The notes under the pieces are model-generated. The model did not search any database. It worked only from the letters and a program-made list of their open reading frames with translations, and was not told the origin of the DNA. This document shows, piece after piece, positions 28,568-52,678 of a stretch of 52,824 bases of DNA. The translations under genes were made by a program, and so were the position numbers. The stretch is from NCBI GenBank assembly GCA_021202335.1, contig JAJQDE010000001.1, positions 1-52,824 of the forward strand. Direction: 5' to 3'. The stretch comes from Lachnospiraceae bacterium. GTDB taxonomy: Bacteria > Bacillota > Clostridia > Lachnospirales > Lachnospiraceae. The stretch's first letter is position 1. Every line of letters begins with the position of its first letter.

Positions 28568-30214
28568 TCAACCGCCATATGGCTTGTACTGCGCGGCTAT
28601 CCTCTCCGCAACCAAAATTCCGTCCATTGCCGCCGAGGTAATTCCCCCTGCGTAGCCCGCTCCCTCACCGCACGGATAAAGTCCGCTCACTGAAGGGCTT
28701 TGCAGCGCTTCGTTGCGGTGAATCCTTACGGGCGAGGAAGTACGGCTTTCGACGCCCGACAAAATCGCATCGTCCCCGGCAAAGCCCTTTATCCGTCTGT
28801 CAAACTGCTCCATGCCCTCGATAAATGCCTGCTCGCACTCCGCGGGCAGCAGACCTCTCAAATTGGCAAATCCATAGCTGCCCTTCATACACGGTTCGTT
28901 GTAATGCAGGGCAGACATTTCCGTATCCGTTGAGGAAATATTTCTTTTAAAATCTCCATAATACTGTACCGGAATTTTCCCGCCGCAAAGCCGGTATGCT
29001 TTCTCCTCCAGCCGCCTTTGGAACTCCACTCCGGCAAGCGGACCCGTATCTCCATAGTCCTTTGGGGAAACCTGCACAATAATGGCGCTGTTTGCGTTTT
29101 TAGCGCCTCTGTCGGAATAGCTCATCCCGTTGATTGCAAGCCGCCCCTCCTCGCCTGAAGCATTTACCACATATCCTCCCGGACACATGCAAAACGAATA
29201 CACGCCGCGTCCGCTGCCCGTCCTTGCCGTAAGCTTATAGGGTGCGGCGGGAAGGTCATTTCCATGCTCAGCGCCGTACATGTTTTCGTTAATCAGGCTT
29301 TGACGGTGCTCCACCCTCATGCCCACCGCAAATGCCTTCGCCTCCATTGACACATGCATACGCTCAAGGTATTCAAAGGTGTCCCTTGCGCTGTGCCCGA
29401 TTGCCAGCACTGCCGTTTCGGTTTTTATGACATCCGTGTCATTTATCTTCACTCCGACAAGTGCGCCATTTTCAAGCACAAGCCCTGTCACCTTCGCCCC
29501 AAACCGCACGCTCCCGCCATTTTCCAAAATCGCCCTGCGCATATTCGCAACAACCGTTTTTAATATATCGGTACCGATATGCGGCTTGCTCTCGTACAAA
29601 ATGTCAGACGGCGCGCCGCACTCCGCAAAAATGCGCAGCACCTCCATGTTTCTGCCATTCCTGTCCTTTACCAGCGTGTTTAGCTTCCCATCCGAGAAAG
29701 CGCCCGCTCCGCCCTCGCCAAACTGCACGTTGGACTCAGGGTCAAGCTTCCCGGTTTCCCAAAACTTCTCCACCGCCTTTGTCCTTGCCTCCACATCAAA
29801 GCCGCGCTCTAAAAGAATCGGTCTGTAACCGTGCCTTGCAAGCATATAGCCGCAGAAAAGCCCTGCCGGACCCATACCTATAATGACGGGGCGCGCGCGA
29901 AGCGTTTCAGCGCCGCTTTGGGGAAATATGTACGGAGCCGGCTTACAAAGCGCGGCGTTCACATTGCCGCAGCGTTTCAGCGCTCTTTCCTCCTGCCCCT
30001 CGTCCTTTAGCCTTACGCCCAGCGAATATACATGAAAAAGCTGCGGCTTCCTTCTCGCGTCTATGGAATGTTTTAATATCACCGTTTCCTCAATCCGGTC
30101 AACAGGGATTTTCAAAAGTCCCGCAGCCTTTTTGCGAAGCGTCATCTCATCCGGTTCAACGGGCTTTTTGTCCCAAAATTGAATTTCTGTTTTTAACTGA
30201 TTAACCGTTATCAC
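28568..30214 (-). CDS. FAD-dependent dehydrogenase-like protein (COG2509 type)
   Basis: A 548-residue flavoprotein with an N-terminal region (about 1-90) before a Rossmann FAD-binding start (RPVIIGMGPAGLFCGYMLA). NVQFGEGGAGAFSDGKLNT follows, and the C-terminus is GLYPCGEGAGYAGGITSAAMDGI, the second FAD-contact motif. The family is widespread in Firmicutes and uncharacterised. The start is GTG at 30214, overlapping the upstream flavoprotein stop (GTGA) and preceded by AAAGGGG. The upstream ATG at 30256 lies inside the preceding gene and is rejected. The coupled overlap suggests the two flavoproteins are made together, but the substrate is unknown. Confidence 0.88.
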   Translation of the reverse strand: MITVNQLKTEIQFWDKKPVEPDEMTLRKKAAGLLKIPVDRIEETVILKHSIDARRKPQLFHVYSLGVRLKDEGQEERALKRCGNVNAALCKPAPYIFPQSGAETLRARPVIIGMGPAGLFCGYMLARHGYRPILLERGFDVEARTKAVEKFWETGKLDPESNVQFGEGGAGAFSDGKLNTLVKDRNGRNMEVLRIFAECGAPSDILYESKPHIGTDILKTVVANMRRAILENGGSVRFGAKVTGLVLENGALVGVKINDTDVIKTETAVLAIGHSARDTFEYLERMHVSMEAKAFAVGMRVEHRQSLINENMYGAEHGNDLPAAPYKLTARTGSGRGVYSFCMCPGGYVVNASGEEGRLAINGMSYSDRGAKNANSAIIVQVSPKDYGDTGPLAGVEFQRRLEEKAYRLCGGKIPVQYYGDFKRNISSTDTEMSALHYNEPCMKGSYGFANLRGLLPAECEQAFIEGMEQFDRRIKGFAGDDAILSGVESRTSSPVRIHRNEALQSPSVSGLYPCGEGAGYAGGITSAAMDGILVAERIAAQYKPYGG

Positions 30215-31461
30215 GTAAACCCCTTTCCCGCGATAGCTCCCGTAGCCCACGCCCATTGAAGATTATATCCGCCGCAAAGCCCGTCGCAGTCCAAAAGCTC
30301 GCCGACAAGATACACATTTTTGCAGAGCCTTGACTCAAAGTGTTCGTCCACCTCGCAAAGCGGCACGCCTCCGCTGCATACCTGCGCGTTTTCAAACGGA
30401 TTTGTGCCCTTTACCCTTACTCTGAAATCAAACAAATCCCTGATGCATTTTTGCACTGCCTTTACTCCCGCCTCCGAGGCGCGCATCTTAGCGTCAATAT
30501 GATTTTTTTTGCAAATCATCGCGGCAAGCTTTTTATGTACCATCCCTGCAAGCAGCCCCTCCACCGTCTTACAGCCGAAGCGTTCCGCATCCGCGCTCCT
30601 TGCGATAAAGCTTTCCCGGTTATCCGCATAAGGCAGGAAATTGATGCGCACCTCACAGGACTTTTTCTCAAAAAGCGCCCTTGCCGCCACACGGCTAATC
30701 TGAAACACGGGGATCCCCGATATGCCGTAATCCGTAAGCTGCAGCTCGCCCCTATCACGGGCCGCCGGCTTACCGTCCGCGTAAAGCACAATATCCGCCT
30801 GTGCGCGCACGCCTGCAACAGCCTTGAAAAAGCTGCCCTCACACCTAAGCTGCACCAATGCCGGCAGCGGCTCGACGATACTGTGCCCGATGCTTCCTGC
30901 AAGCCGATAGCCGGAGCCGTCCGAGCCTGACGCCGGAGCCGCCGCGCCACCCGTTGCCAAAATCAGTCTGTCATATGAAAACACCGGCTTCTTACTTTCC
31001 CCGGCCGCATCAGTCTGCACCGTTTCCACCGCACCGCCGTTTTTTCCCGGCATAACACGCCGCACCTCGCAGTTCGTAAGAAGCTTTATTTTCAGCCGCT
31101 CGCACTCGCTTTTCAGCACATCGGCTACCGCCGACGCCTGCTCCGAAACAGGGTATACGCACCCGTCCCTTTTTTCCTTTGTGTAAAGCCCGATACGCTC
31201 AAAAAAAGCAATGGTGTCCTTCGCGCCAAAGCGGGCAAGCGTGCCATATATTTTTTTCAGCGACTCTTCGTCGCTGCTGTAATATTTTCCGTCAAAGCCG
31301 CTTACGTTTGTAAGGTTACACTTACCGTTTCCCGTCATAAGTATTTTTTTCCCGACTCTGTCCTTATGCTCAAGGATTGTAACCTCATCGCCGTTTTGAG
31401 CCGCAAAGACAGCCGCCATAAGCCCGCTTGCACCACCGCCCACAATTAAAACTCTTTTCAT
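30211..31461 (-). CDS. HI0933/YhiN-family flavoprotein
   Basis: A 416-residue NAD(P)/FAD-dependent oxidoreductase family member. Its FAD site starts MKRVLIVGGGASGLMAAVFAA, followed by KKILMTGNGKCNLTN (a hallmark of the HI0933 group), RLILATGGAAAPASGSDGSGY and the C-terminal VYLVGELLDCDGLCGGYNLQWAWATG. Function is not established for the family. Starts at 31473 and 31461 are both possible. The -10 box at 31501-31506 would place the transcription start close to 31494, so the farther ATG at 31494 is unlikely. It is the first gene of an apparent operon with the COG2509-type gene and proB. Confidence 0.87.
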   Translation of the reverse strand: MKRVLIVGGGASGLMAAVFAAQNGDEVTILEHKDRVGKKILMTGNGKCNLTNVSGFDGKYYSSDEESLKKIYGTLARFGAKDTIAFFERIGLYTKEKRDGCVYPVSEQASAVADVLKSECERLKIKLLTNCEVRRVMPGKNGGAVETVQTDAAGESKKPVFSYDRLILATGGAAAPASGSDGSGYRLAGSIGHSIVEPLPALVQLRCEGSFFKAVAGVRAQADIVLYADGKPAARDRGELQLTDYGISGIPVFQISRVAARALFEKKSCEVRINFLPYADNRESFIARSADAERFGCKTVEGLLAGMVHKKLAAMICKKNHIDAKMRASEAGVKAVQKCIRDLFDFRVRVKGTNPFENAQVCSGGVPLCEVDEHFESRLCKNVYLVGELLDCDGLCGGYNLQWAWATGAIAGKGFT

Positions 31462-31500
31462 ATTCAATCTCATTCCATTCCTGCTCAAACTCACTCATTT

Positions 31501-31509
31501 TGTATAACA
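31501..31509 (-). promoter_or_regulatory. Extended -10 promoter of the flavoprotein-proB operon
   Basis: Minus strand TGTTATACA gives an extended -10 element about 40 bases upstream of the flavoprotein start. The -35 region is poor. Confidence 0.45.
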
Positions 31510-31535
31510 TAATTCCCCGATAAACCCTAATATGC

Positions 31536-31561
31536 GAAAAACGCTGTCCTTTGCGTTTTTC
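31536..31561 (-). terminator. Hairpin between the structured repeats and the flavoprotein gene
   Basis: Arms GAAAAACGC (31536-31544) and GCGTTTTTC (31553-31561) pair perfectly over an 8-base loop. In the minus transcript the 3' arm ends in a U-run, so it is a plausible terminator for the BofC-like gene and its trailing repeats. Confidence 0.6.
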
Positions 31562-31565
31562 CGGG

Positions 31566-31626
31566 GTGAAACTTAGAAGTTCTTTGCGAAATGCCCCTTG
31601 GCATGAGCATTAGAACTTCTTTTCAC
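31566..31626 (-). repeat. Structured 61-nt repeat, copy A
   Basis: A hairpin of three nested stems: outer GTGAAA/TTTCAC, middle AGAAGTTCT/AGAACTTCT and inner ATGCC/GGCAT closed by CCTT (plus-strand sequence). The internal loop is TTGCGAA opposite GAGCATT. It shares its exact architecture and loop bases with copy B, 64 bases away. Confidence 0.85.
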
Positions 31627-31629
31627 CGT

Positions 31630-31690
31630 ATGAGATTTAGCACTTCTTCGCGAAACAGCCCTTGCTGTGAGCGTTAGAAGTACTTCTCAT
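31630..31690 (-). repeat. Structured 61-nt repeat, copy B
   Basis: Same layout as copy A with different stem bases: outer ATGAGA/TCTCAT, middle AGCACTTCT/AGAAGTACT, inner ACAGC/GCTGT closed by CCTT, and internal loop TCGCGAA opposite GAGCGTT. The one non-Watson-Crick pair in the middle stem is C-A on plus but G-U on minus, pointing to a minus-strand transcript. It starts one base after the stop of the BofC-like gene. Confidence 0.85.
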
Positions 31691-31691
31691 T

Positions 31692-32357
31692 CTAGCTGCT
31701 ATACGACTCCAAAAAATGATACACCTGCAGCTCTGTTTCCATGAATTTCCCATTCCTTACATCGTTTAATACATCCTCCGGAAGCGCATCAGGGTCAAGA
31801 CCCGTCCTGAAATACAGGGTCGTCCTGTCCTGCCTGTAAACCCCAATCTCACCGTCAATCTCAATAATATAAAACCCCGTCTGCTCTGTGGACGTGTCAT
31901 AAATCCGCAGTATTTTTATTTTCTCGGGCGAAAAAAGCTCCAAATGCTGGGACTGAAAGCCGGTCTGCTTGTCCTCAAGCGTTGACGCCCTGCCGTCCTC
32001 TAAAAGCGCCTCCTCAAGCTGCTCCCTCGTAAGCCCTATATATTTTGCCGGCAGCTTCTCCTGCTGCGTCGACACTGCTCCATCCTTTTTATCAATATTT
32101 TCATAAATGCATATGGTATCGCAGGTCGTCACAATATCGACACTCTGCGCCTGTACATCCTGCATGTCCGGCTCCTCTAAGCCTGTTTCCGCCTCCGGAT
32201 TTTTCGCGCTTATCTGCTCCTCTCCAATGTCACCGCTGAATTTGCCTTCTCCGTCTGATCCGTCGTCCGCCGTGCTGCGCTTCCAAACAAGCGCCGCCAT
32301 CAGCGCAACAATCATTATACACACAAAAAATAAGCCTATCTTATATCCTTTTCTCAT
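31692..32357 (-). CDS. BofC-like membrane-anchored protein
   Basis: A 221-residue protein with one N-terminal transmembrane helix (GLFFVCIMIVALMAALVW, about 7-24), a low-complexity acidic linker (about 30-75) and a C-terminal domain resembling BofC_C. The domain reads LPAKYIGLTREQLEEAL, LELFSPEKIKILRIYD, GFYIIEIDGEIGVYR, then LPEDVLNDVRNGKFMETELQVYHFLESYSS. In Bacillus, BofC restrains SpoIVB signalling during sporulation. Here it is only domain similarity and may serve a different envelope function. Two ATGs overlap; the one at 32357 has the better GGAGG spacing (six bases). Its stop is immediately followed by the two structured repeats. Confidence 0.75.
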   Translation of the reverse strand: MRKGYKIGLFFVCIMIVALMAALVWKRSTADDGSDGEGKFSGDIGEEQISAKNPEAETGLEEPDMQDVQAQSVDIVTTCDTICIYENIDKKDGAVSTQQEKLPAKYIGLTREQLEEALLEDGRASTLEDKQTGFQSQHLELFSPEKIKILRIYDTSTEQTGFYIIEIDGEIGVYRQDRTTLYFRTGLDPDALPEDVLNDVRNGKFMETELQVYHFLESYSS

Positions 32358-32446
32358 CATCAGCCTCCATTACGTAATAATAGGAACCATAACCTCAGCG
32401 TCTTTGATATAGTATCAGCTTATTTTTTTATTTTATTCATCGACGG

Positions 32447-34081
32447 CTACATTAGCCGGAATCTCTTTGCAAGCGCAAGCACCGTTCTTCCTCCGGGCAT
32501 CTTCCTTAAATCATACTCGCTGACTCCCTTAAGCAGTATTAAAGCCGCAAAGTATACAATCACTCCCAGCACAATACAAAGAAGCACAGTCACCACATTT
32601 CCCGCAGCCTTTGACAAAAGCATACTGGCAATGCCGATTACCACTCCCATTATAACAGCCGCAATCGCGGGAATGACAAAGGTTTTTACATATTCCTGGC
32701 GGTAGCGCAGATACCGTCTGATTGCAAATGCGTTGAAAATGCAGACCAGCACGGCAAACAGGATATTGGCGTAAACCACGGCGTTTATTCCCATCCCGAT
32801 TTCCAAAGCCGCATATAGAAATACAATGTGTATTACAAGCGCAACCGCCGCGTTTCTCACGGGTATCTTCATCCTGTTGATACCCTGCAGCACTCCATTG
32901 GTAAGCGTCGATACTGTGTAAAACACCACGGATACAGAGCCTATGTGGAGCATCTCCACAGCCATGTCAATCTCACCGCTGAACAGCATTGACACAATCG
33001 GGCGTGCAAGCACGGTAAGCCCCACTGCGCTGGGAATTGCCACAATCATTGTAAAGCGCATCGCCTGATTGATTTTTTCCCTTACCTGCGAGTATTCCTC
33101 CTTTACCATCAGACCCGTAAGCACCGGGACAATCGAGGAGCACATCGCGTTTGCAAGTGCAATCGGGACATTCACAAGCACTCTGTACTTTCCCGAGTAA
33201 ACTCCCCAATTATAGGCTTTGACATCCTCCAAGCCCTTTTGTATCATCACGCTGTTGTAAATCCTGATGTCAAGCACATTGCTGAGATTGTATACCGTCG
33301 TGCTCAAAAGCACGGGAAGTATCGTGAGCAGTATCAGCCGGAATATCTGTCCGTAGCTGTCCGTTTTCTGCACCGTTTCTCTTATGCGCTGTCCTCTCAT
33401 TCCCTTCCTGTACAGCAGATACACCAAAATCAAAAAAATCAGACCGATTACGGAGCCTATGACAGGTCCCAGCGACGCACCCGCCGCCCCGTATGCCGGC
33501 GCATAATCCTCGTCATGGAGCAGCTCTCCCACCATGCTGCCGTAGTCAAAGAGAATATAAGCCCCCGCAACGCTGCCTATCAGCACGAAAATCTGTTCAA
33601 GTATCTGCGAAACCGCCGTCGGAACCATTGTTCCAAGACCCTGAAAATATCCGCGGAGCACTCCCATCACGGAAACAATCAAAAGCGCGGGACCCAATAC
33701 CTTCAAAGCCATTGCGCTCATCGGCTCCAGCATCACATCGGAAGCCAGAAAATCGCCAAACATCTCGCACACAAAAAAGGTAAGCCCACCCGCCACAATC
33801 GCAAAAATCATCGCGCAGCGGAATGCGCGCTCCGCACTCTTATATTGCTTTTTACTCATTTTGGAGGACACAACCTTCGACACCGCAAGCGGCAGACTGT
33901 AACAGGATATAATAAGCATCATGGCATAAACCTCATATGCCGCGGAATAATACCCGTTTCCCTTGTCCCCGATAATACGCTCCATGGGAAAGCGCCGCGC
34001 GATGCCGATAATCCTTGAAAGGATTCCCGCCGCCGCAAGAATACTTCCCTGCATGATAAAATTAGACTTCCTTTTTTTCAT
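32447..34081 (-). CDS. SpoVB/MurJ-like polysaccharide flippase
   Basis: A 544-residue membrane protein of the MVF/polysaccharide exporter superfamily with about fourteen helices. N-terminal features are KKRKSNFIMQGSILAAAGILSRIIG and the RFPMERIIGDKGNGYYSAAYEVY loop, typical of SpoVB-like proteins. Members move lipid-linked precursors for cell wall or spore cortex; SpoVB itself is needed for cortex assembly in Bacillus. It overlaps the ybeY stop by four bases (ATGA), continuing the phoH-HD-ybeY cluster. A GGGAG site precedes the ATG by nine bases. A vegetative role in exopolysaccharide transport cannot be excluded. Confidence 0.85.
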   Translation of the reverse strand: MKKRKSNFIMQGSILAAAGILSRIIGIARRFPMERIIGDKGNGYYSAAYEVYAMMLIISCYSLPLAVSKVVSSKMSKKQYKSAERAFRCAMIFAIVAGGLTFFVCEMFGDFLASDVMLEPMSAMALKVLGPALLIVSVMGVLRGYFQGLGTMVPTAVSQILEQIFVLIGSVAGAYILFDYGSMVGELLHDEDYAPAYGAAGASLGPVIGSVIGLIFLILVYLLYRKGMRGQRIRETVQKTDSYGQIFRLILLTILPVLLSTTVYNLSNVLDIRIYNSVMIQKGLEDVKAYNWGVYSGKYRVLVNVPIALANAMCSSIVPVLTGLMVKEEYSQVREKINQAMRFTMIVAIPSAVGLTVLARPIVSMLFSGEIDMAVEMLHIGSVSVVFYTVSTLTNGVLQGINRMKIPVRNAAVALVIHIVFLYAALEIGMGINAVVYANILFAVLVCIFNAFAIRRYLRYRQEYVKTFVIPAIAAVIMGVVIGIASMLLSKAAGNVVTVLLCIVLGVIVYFAALILLKGVSEYDLRKMPGGRTVLALAKRFRLM

Positions 34082-34587
34082 TCACATAACTCCCTTGTAA
34101 TTCCAAGTCCCGAAAGGATTGCCTCCTGCTTCTGCTCCATCTCTTCCGCCTCCTTTGGCGTCATATGGTCGTAGCCCAGCAAATGCAGCATACTGTGCGC
34201 CGTCAAAAACGCATATTCCCGCAGAAGGGAATGGCCGTATTCCGAAGCCTGACTGTACACTCTGTCCACATTGATTACAATATCGCCAAGGAAAAGCTCG
34301 CCGCTCTCCGGCTCAAAATAATCCTCAGCTTTATCCTCAAGCCCCGAAAAATCGGCGGGTCTGTCATAATCCACGTTTGGAAATGAGAGCACATCCGTAG
34401 GCATGTCTATCCCCCGAAACTCATGGTTCATGGCGTGTATTCCCGCGTCATCCGTAAGCAGCAGCGACACGCTCGCCTCATATGGGCAGTCCTCAGAGGC
34501 AAGCGCCTCCGAAATCACCTTTTTGGCAATCTCCTCCACGTCAAACGGCAGCGTCTTGTCCGTTTCACTCTCTACGCAAAAAGTCAT
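34078..34587 (-). CDS. ybeY: Endoribonuclease YbeY
   Basis: A zinc-dependent endoribonuclease involved in 16S rRNA 3' maturation and ribosome quality control. The 169-residue product carries the H-x3-H-x5-H motif HSMLHLLGYDH (H131, H135, H141), the conserved R-x3-PTDVLSFP stretch and GDIVIN. The ATG at 34587 has a GGGAGAG site ten bases upstream; the in-frame ATG at 34656 lies deep in the HD gene and is rejected. It overlaps the HD-protein end by 23 bases and the SpoVB-like start by four. The order phoH - HD protein - ybeY is the classic Firmicute arrangement. Confidence 0.95.
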   Translation of the reverse strand: MTFCVESETDKTLPFDVEEIAKKVISEALASEDCPYEASVSLLLTDDAGIHAMNHEFRGIDMPTDVLSFPNVDYDRPADFSGLEDKAEDYFEPESGELFLGDIVINVDRVYSQASEYGHSLLREYAFLTAHSMLHLLGYDHMTPKEAEEMEQKQEAILSGLGITRELCE

Positions 34588-52302: not shown

Positions 52303-52375
52303 TGGGACCTACAGGGCTCGAACCTGTGACCCTCTGCTTGTAAGGCAGATGCTCTCCCAGCTGAGCTAAGATCCC
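52303..52375 (-). tRNA. tRNA-Val (TAC anticodon)
   Basis: A 73-nt cloverleaf. Acceptor stem GGGATCT/AGGTCCC has discriminator A. The anticodon loop CTTACAA lies on a TCTGC/GCAGA stem, and the T-arm contains GGTTCGAGCC. CCA is not encoded. It is the last gene of the tRNA operon. Confidence 0.95.
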
Positions 52376-52379
52376 ATAA

Positions 52380-52453
52380 CGACCCCAATCGGACTCGAAC
52401 CGACGACCTCCGCCGTGACAGGGCGGCGCTCTAACCAACTGAGCCATGAGGCC
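52380..52453 (-). tRNA. tRNA-Asp (GTC anticodon)
   Basis: A 74-nt cloverleaf with acceptor GGCCTCA/TGGGGTC, discriminator G (typical of tRNA-Asp), anticodon loop CTGTCAC, and GGTTCGAGTCC in the T-arm. Four bases separate it from tRNA-Val. Confidence 0.95.
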
Positions 52454-52456
52454 GTA

Positions 52457-52528
52457 TGACTCCAACGGGAATTGAACCCGTGTTACCGCCGTGAAAGGGC
52501 GATGTCTTAACCGCTTGACCATGGAGCC
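52457..52528 (-). tRNA. tRNA-Glu (TTC anticodon)
   Basis: A 72-nt cloverleaf with acceptor GGCTCCA/TGGAGTC, discriminator A, anticodon loop CTTTCAC, and GGTTCAATTCC in the T-arm. It lies three bases from tRNA-Asp. Confidence 0.95.
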
Positions 52529-52604
52529 TTTAAACATTAATACTTACCGGCTCACTGCATTACTGTCCTCATACCTTAAACCTGTTTACATCTTCCGGTA
52601 ACAG

Positions 52605-52678
<74 letters not shown>

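Follow-up and report, generated by a model that had tools for sequence, protein, structure and literature searches.

Two tandem hairpins on the minus strand of a 52,824-nucleotide stretch of Lachnospiraceae DNA (the whole of which is called the window here) are probably two copies in tandem of a mobile palindromic element of the Lachnospiraceae that is REP/BIME-like and non-autonomous. They are members of a dispersed repeat family and not a single-locus RNA. An earlier note on this DNA had seen in them selection on the RNA structure of a minus-strand transcript and had listed a mobile hairpin repeat among the alternatives; its interpretation is partly supported, and the alternative fits best, with dispersed near-identical copies, presence and absence in close relatives, and head-to-tail units. 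Strong covariation between copies is usually taken as proof of a functional RNA, and here it accompanies an element that apparently jumps and is swapped with its palindrome intact, which calls for caution when RNAs are sought in gut metagenomes. The family adds to the Lachnospiraceae a REP-like repeat with empty sites in closely related species, opening its target choice, its direction, and its influence on fab, transketolase, and other genes to testing.

The hairpins lie where the earlier note had placed them (31566-31626 and 31630-31690, minus strand, 61 nt each), share one layout, and fold as described on both strands, with a start-to-start distance of 64 nt and 70% ungapped identity in register. 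Along the minus strand, a gene for 222 amino acids (31692..32360) is followed by its TAG stop codon (31694-31692), which ends 1 base before the first hairpin and occupies the position of the TAG tag of the relatives, then by the first hairpin (31690-31630), 3 bases, the second hairpin (31626-31566), a stem-loop (31561-31536), and a gene for an HI0933-like flavoprotein (30211..31494; PF03486, TIGR00275) whose true start may lie further in, so that the pair stands between two co-directional genes. The upstream gene, which 34 of the 38 genus genomes carry, had been called BofC-like, a label that found no backing in Pfam (no family at E 0.01) or NCBIfam (none at E 0.001).

By folding, the first copy consists of an outer stem (31685-31690/31630-31635), a 3-nt bulge (31636-31638), a middle stem (31676-31684/31639-31647), an inner stem of 3 bp (31671-31673/31649-31651), an apical stem (31664-31668/31655-31659), and an AAGG loop (31660-31663), and the second copy repeats these parts at 31621-31626/31566-31571 (outer stem), 31572-31574 (bulge), 31612-31620/31575-31583 (middle stem), 31607-31609/31585-31587 (inner stem), 31600-31604/31591-31595 (apical stem), and 31596-31599 (AAGG). 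The 7x7 internal loop of the earlier description contains the 3-bp stem in the folds, and the T/C difference that had been put down to drift within this loop is a paired change, because the first inner-stem pair occurs in the relatives in four Watson-Crick forms (C-G, U-A, A-U, or G-C). In many relatives the outer stem is longer by two pairs (positions -2,-1 against +1,+2 read GT/AC at 151 and GC/GC at 52 of 314 places), and within the window only the copy at 31566-31626 gains one such pair. The stem-loop right behind the hairpins, detected both as an inverted repeat and by folding, has a perfect 9-bp stem (GAAAAACGC/GCGTTTTTC) with an 8-nt loop and is of the type, here called B, that follows the hairpin (A) in many relatives.

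The minimum free energies predicted for RNA at 31566-31626 and 31630-31690 are -23.6 and -25.8 kcal/mol on the minus strand (z -4.67 and -5.07) and -25.9 and -23.5 kcal/mol on the plus strand (z -6.80 and -5.20), and of 200 shuffles 0 and 1 (minus) and 0 and 0 (plus) folded as well. The strands are told apart by the covariance model of the relatives, which gives the first and the second copy 85.2 and 84.4 bits on the minus strand versus 14.6 and 16.7 bits on the plus strand, in agreement with the orientation that the earlier note had assigned to the structure-constrained element.

A covariance model built from the two window copies (R1) detected additional copies in the genome of the window, at E 7.1e-17 and 2.1e-15, so the pair is more than a chance resemblance. 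At E <= 0.1, the same model matched 30 of the 38 genomes of the genus, with 29 of the matches in a single genome. A second model (R2), made from 109 relatives and applied to the family at E <= 0.001, matched 33 of 397 sampled genomes and 28 of 334 genera, counts that are lower bounds owing to stricter filters and to the scoring of at most 13 candidates per genome; the window's own genome (G000) gave 12 hits in this search. On other contigs of G000, six of the hits that were read fall into a shorter hairpin class of 56-57 nt, and a GGCAGCAAAAGACGCTGCC-type interior within the same outer architecture was seen in this class at L405, L406, L407, L408, and L372 of that genome, in part directly after stop codons. 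In total, the models yielded 341 hits for hairpin A, of which 27 were left out for repeated context or N stretches, leaving 314 distinct places. One genome (G389) carries eight identical 61-nt copies, and the left flanks are unrelated in all seven that have a flank available. A scan of GTDB contigs for the hairpin pattern returned at least 118 stretches, and among the 80 listed titles most were Lachnospiraceae or genera such as Acetatifactor, Roseburia, and Parablautia, and some were unnamed bacteria, Clostridia, or Bacillota. Copies were also seen in contigs labelled as Treponema and Gastranaerophilales MAGs (L215 and L234), perhaps through binning errors. The window pair had no match in phage or plasmid collections at E 0.01; the pattern occurs in two IMG/VR stretches (viral contigs L441 and L442), which are perhaps prophages or host DNA.

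As the earlier note had supposed, the hairpins fall outside any named RNA family in the Rfam searches made: at the gathering cut-off the whole window matched only tRNAs, nothing appeared up to E 10 within 31495-31760, and related loci gave nothing either at gathering (nine loci) or up to E 1 (three loci). Four tRNA genes matched by Rfam are clustered at 52303-52678 on the minus strand. No earlier description of the hairpin family in Lachnospiraceae was recognised in the literature searched, and a survey of structured RNAs of human microbiomes (PMC8040213) might contain part of it.

Hairpin A is often the first part of a ~135-bp unit that continues with two other stem-loops, namely B (GAAGAAYGC.../...GCRTTCTTC), which follows A in many copies, and C, which ends in ATGGAGGTTA or similar, and the boundaries of within-genome repeats coincide with the ends of this unit. 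All 36 pairs of neighbours within 400 nt lie on the same strand, head to tail, and none on opposite strands; the spacing is 135-137 nt in 13 of the 36 and 63-64 nt in three, the window pair included. Additional hairpins appear at unpaired positions, by eye in at least eight copies in place of the 3-nt bulge, and mini-hairpins resembling an outer stem closed by a TAAA-like loop were also seen; both would be nested hairpins. A GGAGG-like motif was recognised at the end of 51 among 267 last copies, and in 21 of the 51 an ORF starts no more than 10 nt away, which compares with 92 of 438 for the same motif anywhere in all loci examined (elements included), and a role for the right end of the unit as the ribosome-binding site of the next gene is therefore suggestive only.

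The family sits in sense direction and often exactly at the 3' ends of genes. Both flanking ORFs are sense at 195 of the 314 places, both antisense at 14, and mixed at 50, and the remainder have an ORF called on one side only (36) or lie inside an automatically called ORF (19). An ORF open over at least 80 codons ends at the junction at 139 places, with TAG at -4 in 79, TAA there in 5, a stop within the first stem in 31, and a stop directly before the tag in 24; at 32 others the stop lies 8-37 nt before the hairpin, and by the 80-codon test there is no abutting or near upstream ORF at 143, in part because inner members of arrays follow another unit. The family often provides the stop codon of the upstream gene: TAG ends 75 of 138 abutted ORFs versus 186 of 942 other ORFs, the GTGA of the first stem gives a TGA stop in another frame, and twelve ORFs continue into the element in an open frame. 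Over the 314 places the tag reads TAGT in 126, TAGC in 48, and AAGT in 40, with 84% G at -2, 92% A at -3, 65% T at -4, and mixed bases at -5 (A 45, T 26, G 19, and C 8%). Among the 25 largest clusters of neighbouring genes (886 ORFs from 252 loci), judged by eye on the first 110 residues of one representative each, no recurrent gene looked like a transposase or integrase.

Close relatives differ in the presence of the family at the same site. In the genome G028, ~135 bp follow an upp-like gene, which we take to be upp, at the filled junction ..ACAAAATA^GCGTGA.., and this insert is missing from all five relatives read (G025, G012, G006, G032, and G010); the empty site of G025 reads ..ACAAAATAATGTG, and the insert measures 135 bp with the right junction chosen here and ~136 bp from the BLAST coordinates. 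At the end of fabD, which was matched in 36 of 38 genomes and read in 30 loci, the TTA TAA of G025 and G012 runs almost directly into fabG, whereas G028 has TTA^GTGTGAG, with the TGA stop supplied by the element; G032 carries the shorter hairpin class there, G010 and G006 carry a mini-hairpin and another stem-loop, and the FabD proteins of the compared species are 95-97% identical to that of G028. A site behind a gene for the N-terminal half of transketolase has an A hairpin in G028 and none in G006, G032, and G012. At this site G010 (L444/L465) has a short stretch, TTAGCGTAG, in the hairpin's place, a possible remnant of a lost copy. Orthologues of the window site, read by eye in 30 loci, have A hairpins only in G000 (two) and G028 (one), and many of the other loci have short junctions; another long hairpin, of the CCATTAAGGAAATCTAAGG.. 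type, stands directly after the stop codon at this site in G020 and G017 (L177 and L178).

Both clear comparisons of an empty with a filled site place the left junction at TA^G, and a TAA stop that receives such an insertion becomes TAG. Taken together, the empty and filled sites indicate that the element is gained or lost at the stop codon or directly beside it, its G being preceded by TA. Insertion as such is inferred from presence and absence and from parsimony: in the empty-site comparisons the right junction was not sharp and showed no target duplication, and inverted ends of the whole unit were not seen by eye at one clean site. The automated candidates for empty sites, among those listed, were largely the same places twice or orthologues of the window gene and were excluded from the counts.

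The copies would spread as single-stranded hairpins acted on in trans by a structure-recognising enzyme, as has been proposed for REPs and TnpA-REP. Such a hairpin would enter next to TA, and since TAA and TAG both start with TA, insertion there would rebuild TAG and spare the gene; selection would then retain these harmless sense copies. Once inserted, the element would be transcribed as a 3'-UTR or intercistronic hairpin directly after the stop codon, where it could alter translation, the stability of the mRNA, or how the next gene is coupled, by analogy with REPs lying no more than 15 nt from a stop. REPs within 15 nt of the stop codon reduce translation according to the accessible part of PMC12306157, and the hairpin 1 base behind the stop codon in the window may act like them. 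The family may also have a function as RNA. A bolder version, which we consider conceivable though on balance improbable, is that the family is a mobile gene spacer of a new kind: it would enter gene ends along the direction of transcription, swap the native stop for its own (TA^G, or GTGA in another frame), be able to carry a ribosome-binding-like end for the next gene, be moved by an enzyme other than Y1/RAYT, and exchange nested hairpins as modules at fixed sites.

The paired changes between the two window copies, on which the earlier note had built its case, are real. In a set of 96 distinct sequences, standard pairs make up 97.1% of 2178 pair cells, two-sided changes occur at 19 of 23 pairs, and the covariation score is 0.414 versus 0.157 for shuffled and at most 0.089 for slid alignments; a second set of 113 distinct sequences gave two-sided changes in 17 of 23 pairs and a score of 0.393 versus 0.151, both alignments having been fitted to the model and the structure thus favoured by the method. 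These scores, the outer-stem preference for G-U over A-C (74 to 17), the sense orientation, which holds toward both flanking genes in 195 out of 209 two-sided cases, and the extra hairpins seen by eye at unpaired positions in eight copies would suit a cis-acting structured RNA, be it a 3'-UTR regulator, a stabiliser, or a processing site, that selection on the transcript maintains and that has spread through its use to the host. The sense bias and the G-U excess, which also fit selection on RNA, are points against the mobile-element reading. We regard this explanation as unlikely, however. Across 274 distinct sequences the pair cells comprise 5781 Watson-Crick, 135 G-U, 99 A-C, and 117 other combinations, so that the stems are almost purely Watson-Crick and only the outer stem shows a clear excess of G-U over A-C. 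G-U is barely ahead in the middle (21 versus 12) and apical (22 versus 17) stems, together 43 versus 29, and A-C leads in the inner stem by 53 to 18, 42 of these A-C cells coming from a single pair next to the internal loop. As the cells are not independent, the ratios serve only as a guide, uncalibrated against a known RNA. With so few changes through G-U, the proposal of selection on the RNA structure of a minus-strand transcript was not borne out.

Fixed sites point the same way. At 13 sites common to two genomes, 298 pair comparisons contained 26 two-sided Watson-Crick changes, 6 changes through G-U, and 22 breaks, these 13 being what remained of 17 site pairs after two truncated pairs and two class switches had been left out. 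The excess of two-sided over G-U changes suits whole-palindrome exchange or a constraint at the DNA level better than slow RNA covariation, and several copies are broken. Two two-sided changes were found at each of two sites with upstream flanks 94.9% and 90.0% identical, and the two class-switch sites carry different hairpin classes, although their orthology is less sure because their flanks are only 71-74% alike. Replacement by another copy, while not proven, accounts for the differences at fixed sites more easily than the stepwise evolution of one RNA. Different hairpins or none at orthologous sites, and identical copies after unrelated genes, also tell against an RNA kept for its function.

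Somewhat less probable again is that the hairpins form a REP family proper, mobilised by a RAYT/Y1 HUH transposase since lost from some carriers. In its favour, a short 5' tag stands at the foot of a long bulged hairpin, matching the REP rules in the consulted part of PMC6006769; the copies are extragenic, multicopy, and near gene 3' ends; TAG serves as a stop, as in GTAG REPs; and the hairpin of 61-62 nt with a 3-nt bulge falls within the REP format of 21-65 nt and two stems joined by a bulge of 1-3 nt. A RAYT-like protein is also encoded in G001, the genome with the most R1 matches. This protein of 263 aa (L142, 993-1784; REP_Tyr_transpos, 55.9 bits) has no hairpins beside its gene. Against such a family, the protein remains under the NCBIfam cut-off (55.9 of 80 bits) and occurs in only one of the 38 genomes of the genus, with a 41-residue match in another, no hairpin was found in 30 loci around Y1 genes of the genus or in 12 of other genomes, and four of 11 hairpin-rich genomes lack a PF01797 match at E 0.01. 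The window's genome had no match to PF01797 either, and the failure of these searches to turn up a mobilising enzyme also weighs against the preferred reading of a mobile element. RAYT/Y1 as the mobiliser was set aside as not required, as it shows no linkage to the copies and is absent from several carriers. The tag, moreover, lacks a fixed preceding G (TAGT, TAGC, and AAGT as counted above): a GTAG or GTGG tetranucleotide 0-2 nt before the hairpin is precluded as a rule by the unconserved -5, and a REPtron, that is, a RAYT/Y1 gene flanked by the repeats, was not found among the loci examined. The family is not filed as a REP because the GT[AG]G tag and the REPtron are missing.

With the REP/BIME-like mobile element kept as the preferred reading, the likeness to GTAG- and CGTC-tagged REPs and BIMEs (PMC3733652 and PMC6006769, in the parts available) lies in dispersed, tagged palindromes with long bulged stems near 3' ends and a tag used as stop. 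The accessible text of PMC3733652 places GTAG REPs near 3' ends, in the gaps of unidirectional and of convergent ORF pairs, and states that they "often provide" a TAG stop codon to flanking ORFs; the present family likewise lies between co-directional or convergent genes, and the same text names no REP family from Firmicutes. The differences are the tag (TAG[T/C] or AAG, with no fixed G), the hairpin itself, which is 61-62 nt long, has three additional helices and a bulge conserved at 3 nt, and is part of a ~135-bp unit of three hairpins, and the lack of a Y1 gene beside the copies in the loci examined. The long-REP rule, in the portion of PMC6006769 at hand, is without the further internal loop of the present hairpin, and many REP families, as far as these sources go, have close units mostly in opposite orientation, whereas the present copies stand only head to tail. 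By analogy, the family would work like GTAG REPs, and it resembles the REP repeats of E. coli, yet it is built differently.

A TA-targeting MITE of the Tc1/mariner (IS630) kind could explain why TA tends to precede the left end (T 65% at -4, A 92% at -3) and the TA^G at two empty sites, but is very unlikely, as the right end of the 135-bp insert has no TA or matching inverted repeat and the consensus at +3 and +4 behind hairpin A is not TA. Least probable of all are ordinary intrinsic terminators that merely look alike, for although the hairpins directly follow stop codons and stem-loop B has T-rich arms, a terminator scan of 30100-34200 does not list the hairpin site, no T run follows A in the window or the consensus, the hairpins occur within the fab and transketolase gene pairs, and terminators would leave one shared sequence family with a fixed bulge and fixed loops unexplained.

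Two further systems resemble the family in architecture. The attC sites of integrons are imperfect hairpins with conserved extrahelical bases and freely varying stems, located after the stop codon of a gene. The present hairpins are similarly imperfect, with conserved unpaired bases, variable stems, and a place behind the stop codon; unlike attC sites, they were not seen in cassette arrays, and the genes around them appear to be ordinary chromosomal ones. Among modular repeats known from a Firmicute, the BOX elements of Streptococcus pneumoniae (PMC3049150, in the part available) come nearest, being likewise modular, tandem-expandable, and strongly folded. Compared by architecture only, they differ in sequence and modules and have terminal inverted repeats, likened to ISSpn2 in that source, of which none were found here; the same pages propose BOX elements to be parasitic and to affect co-transcribed genes.
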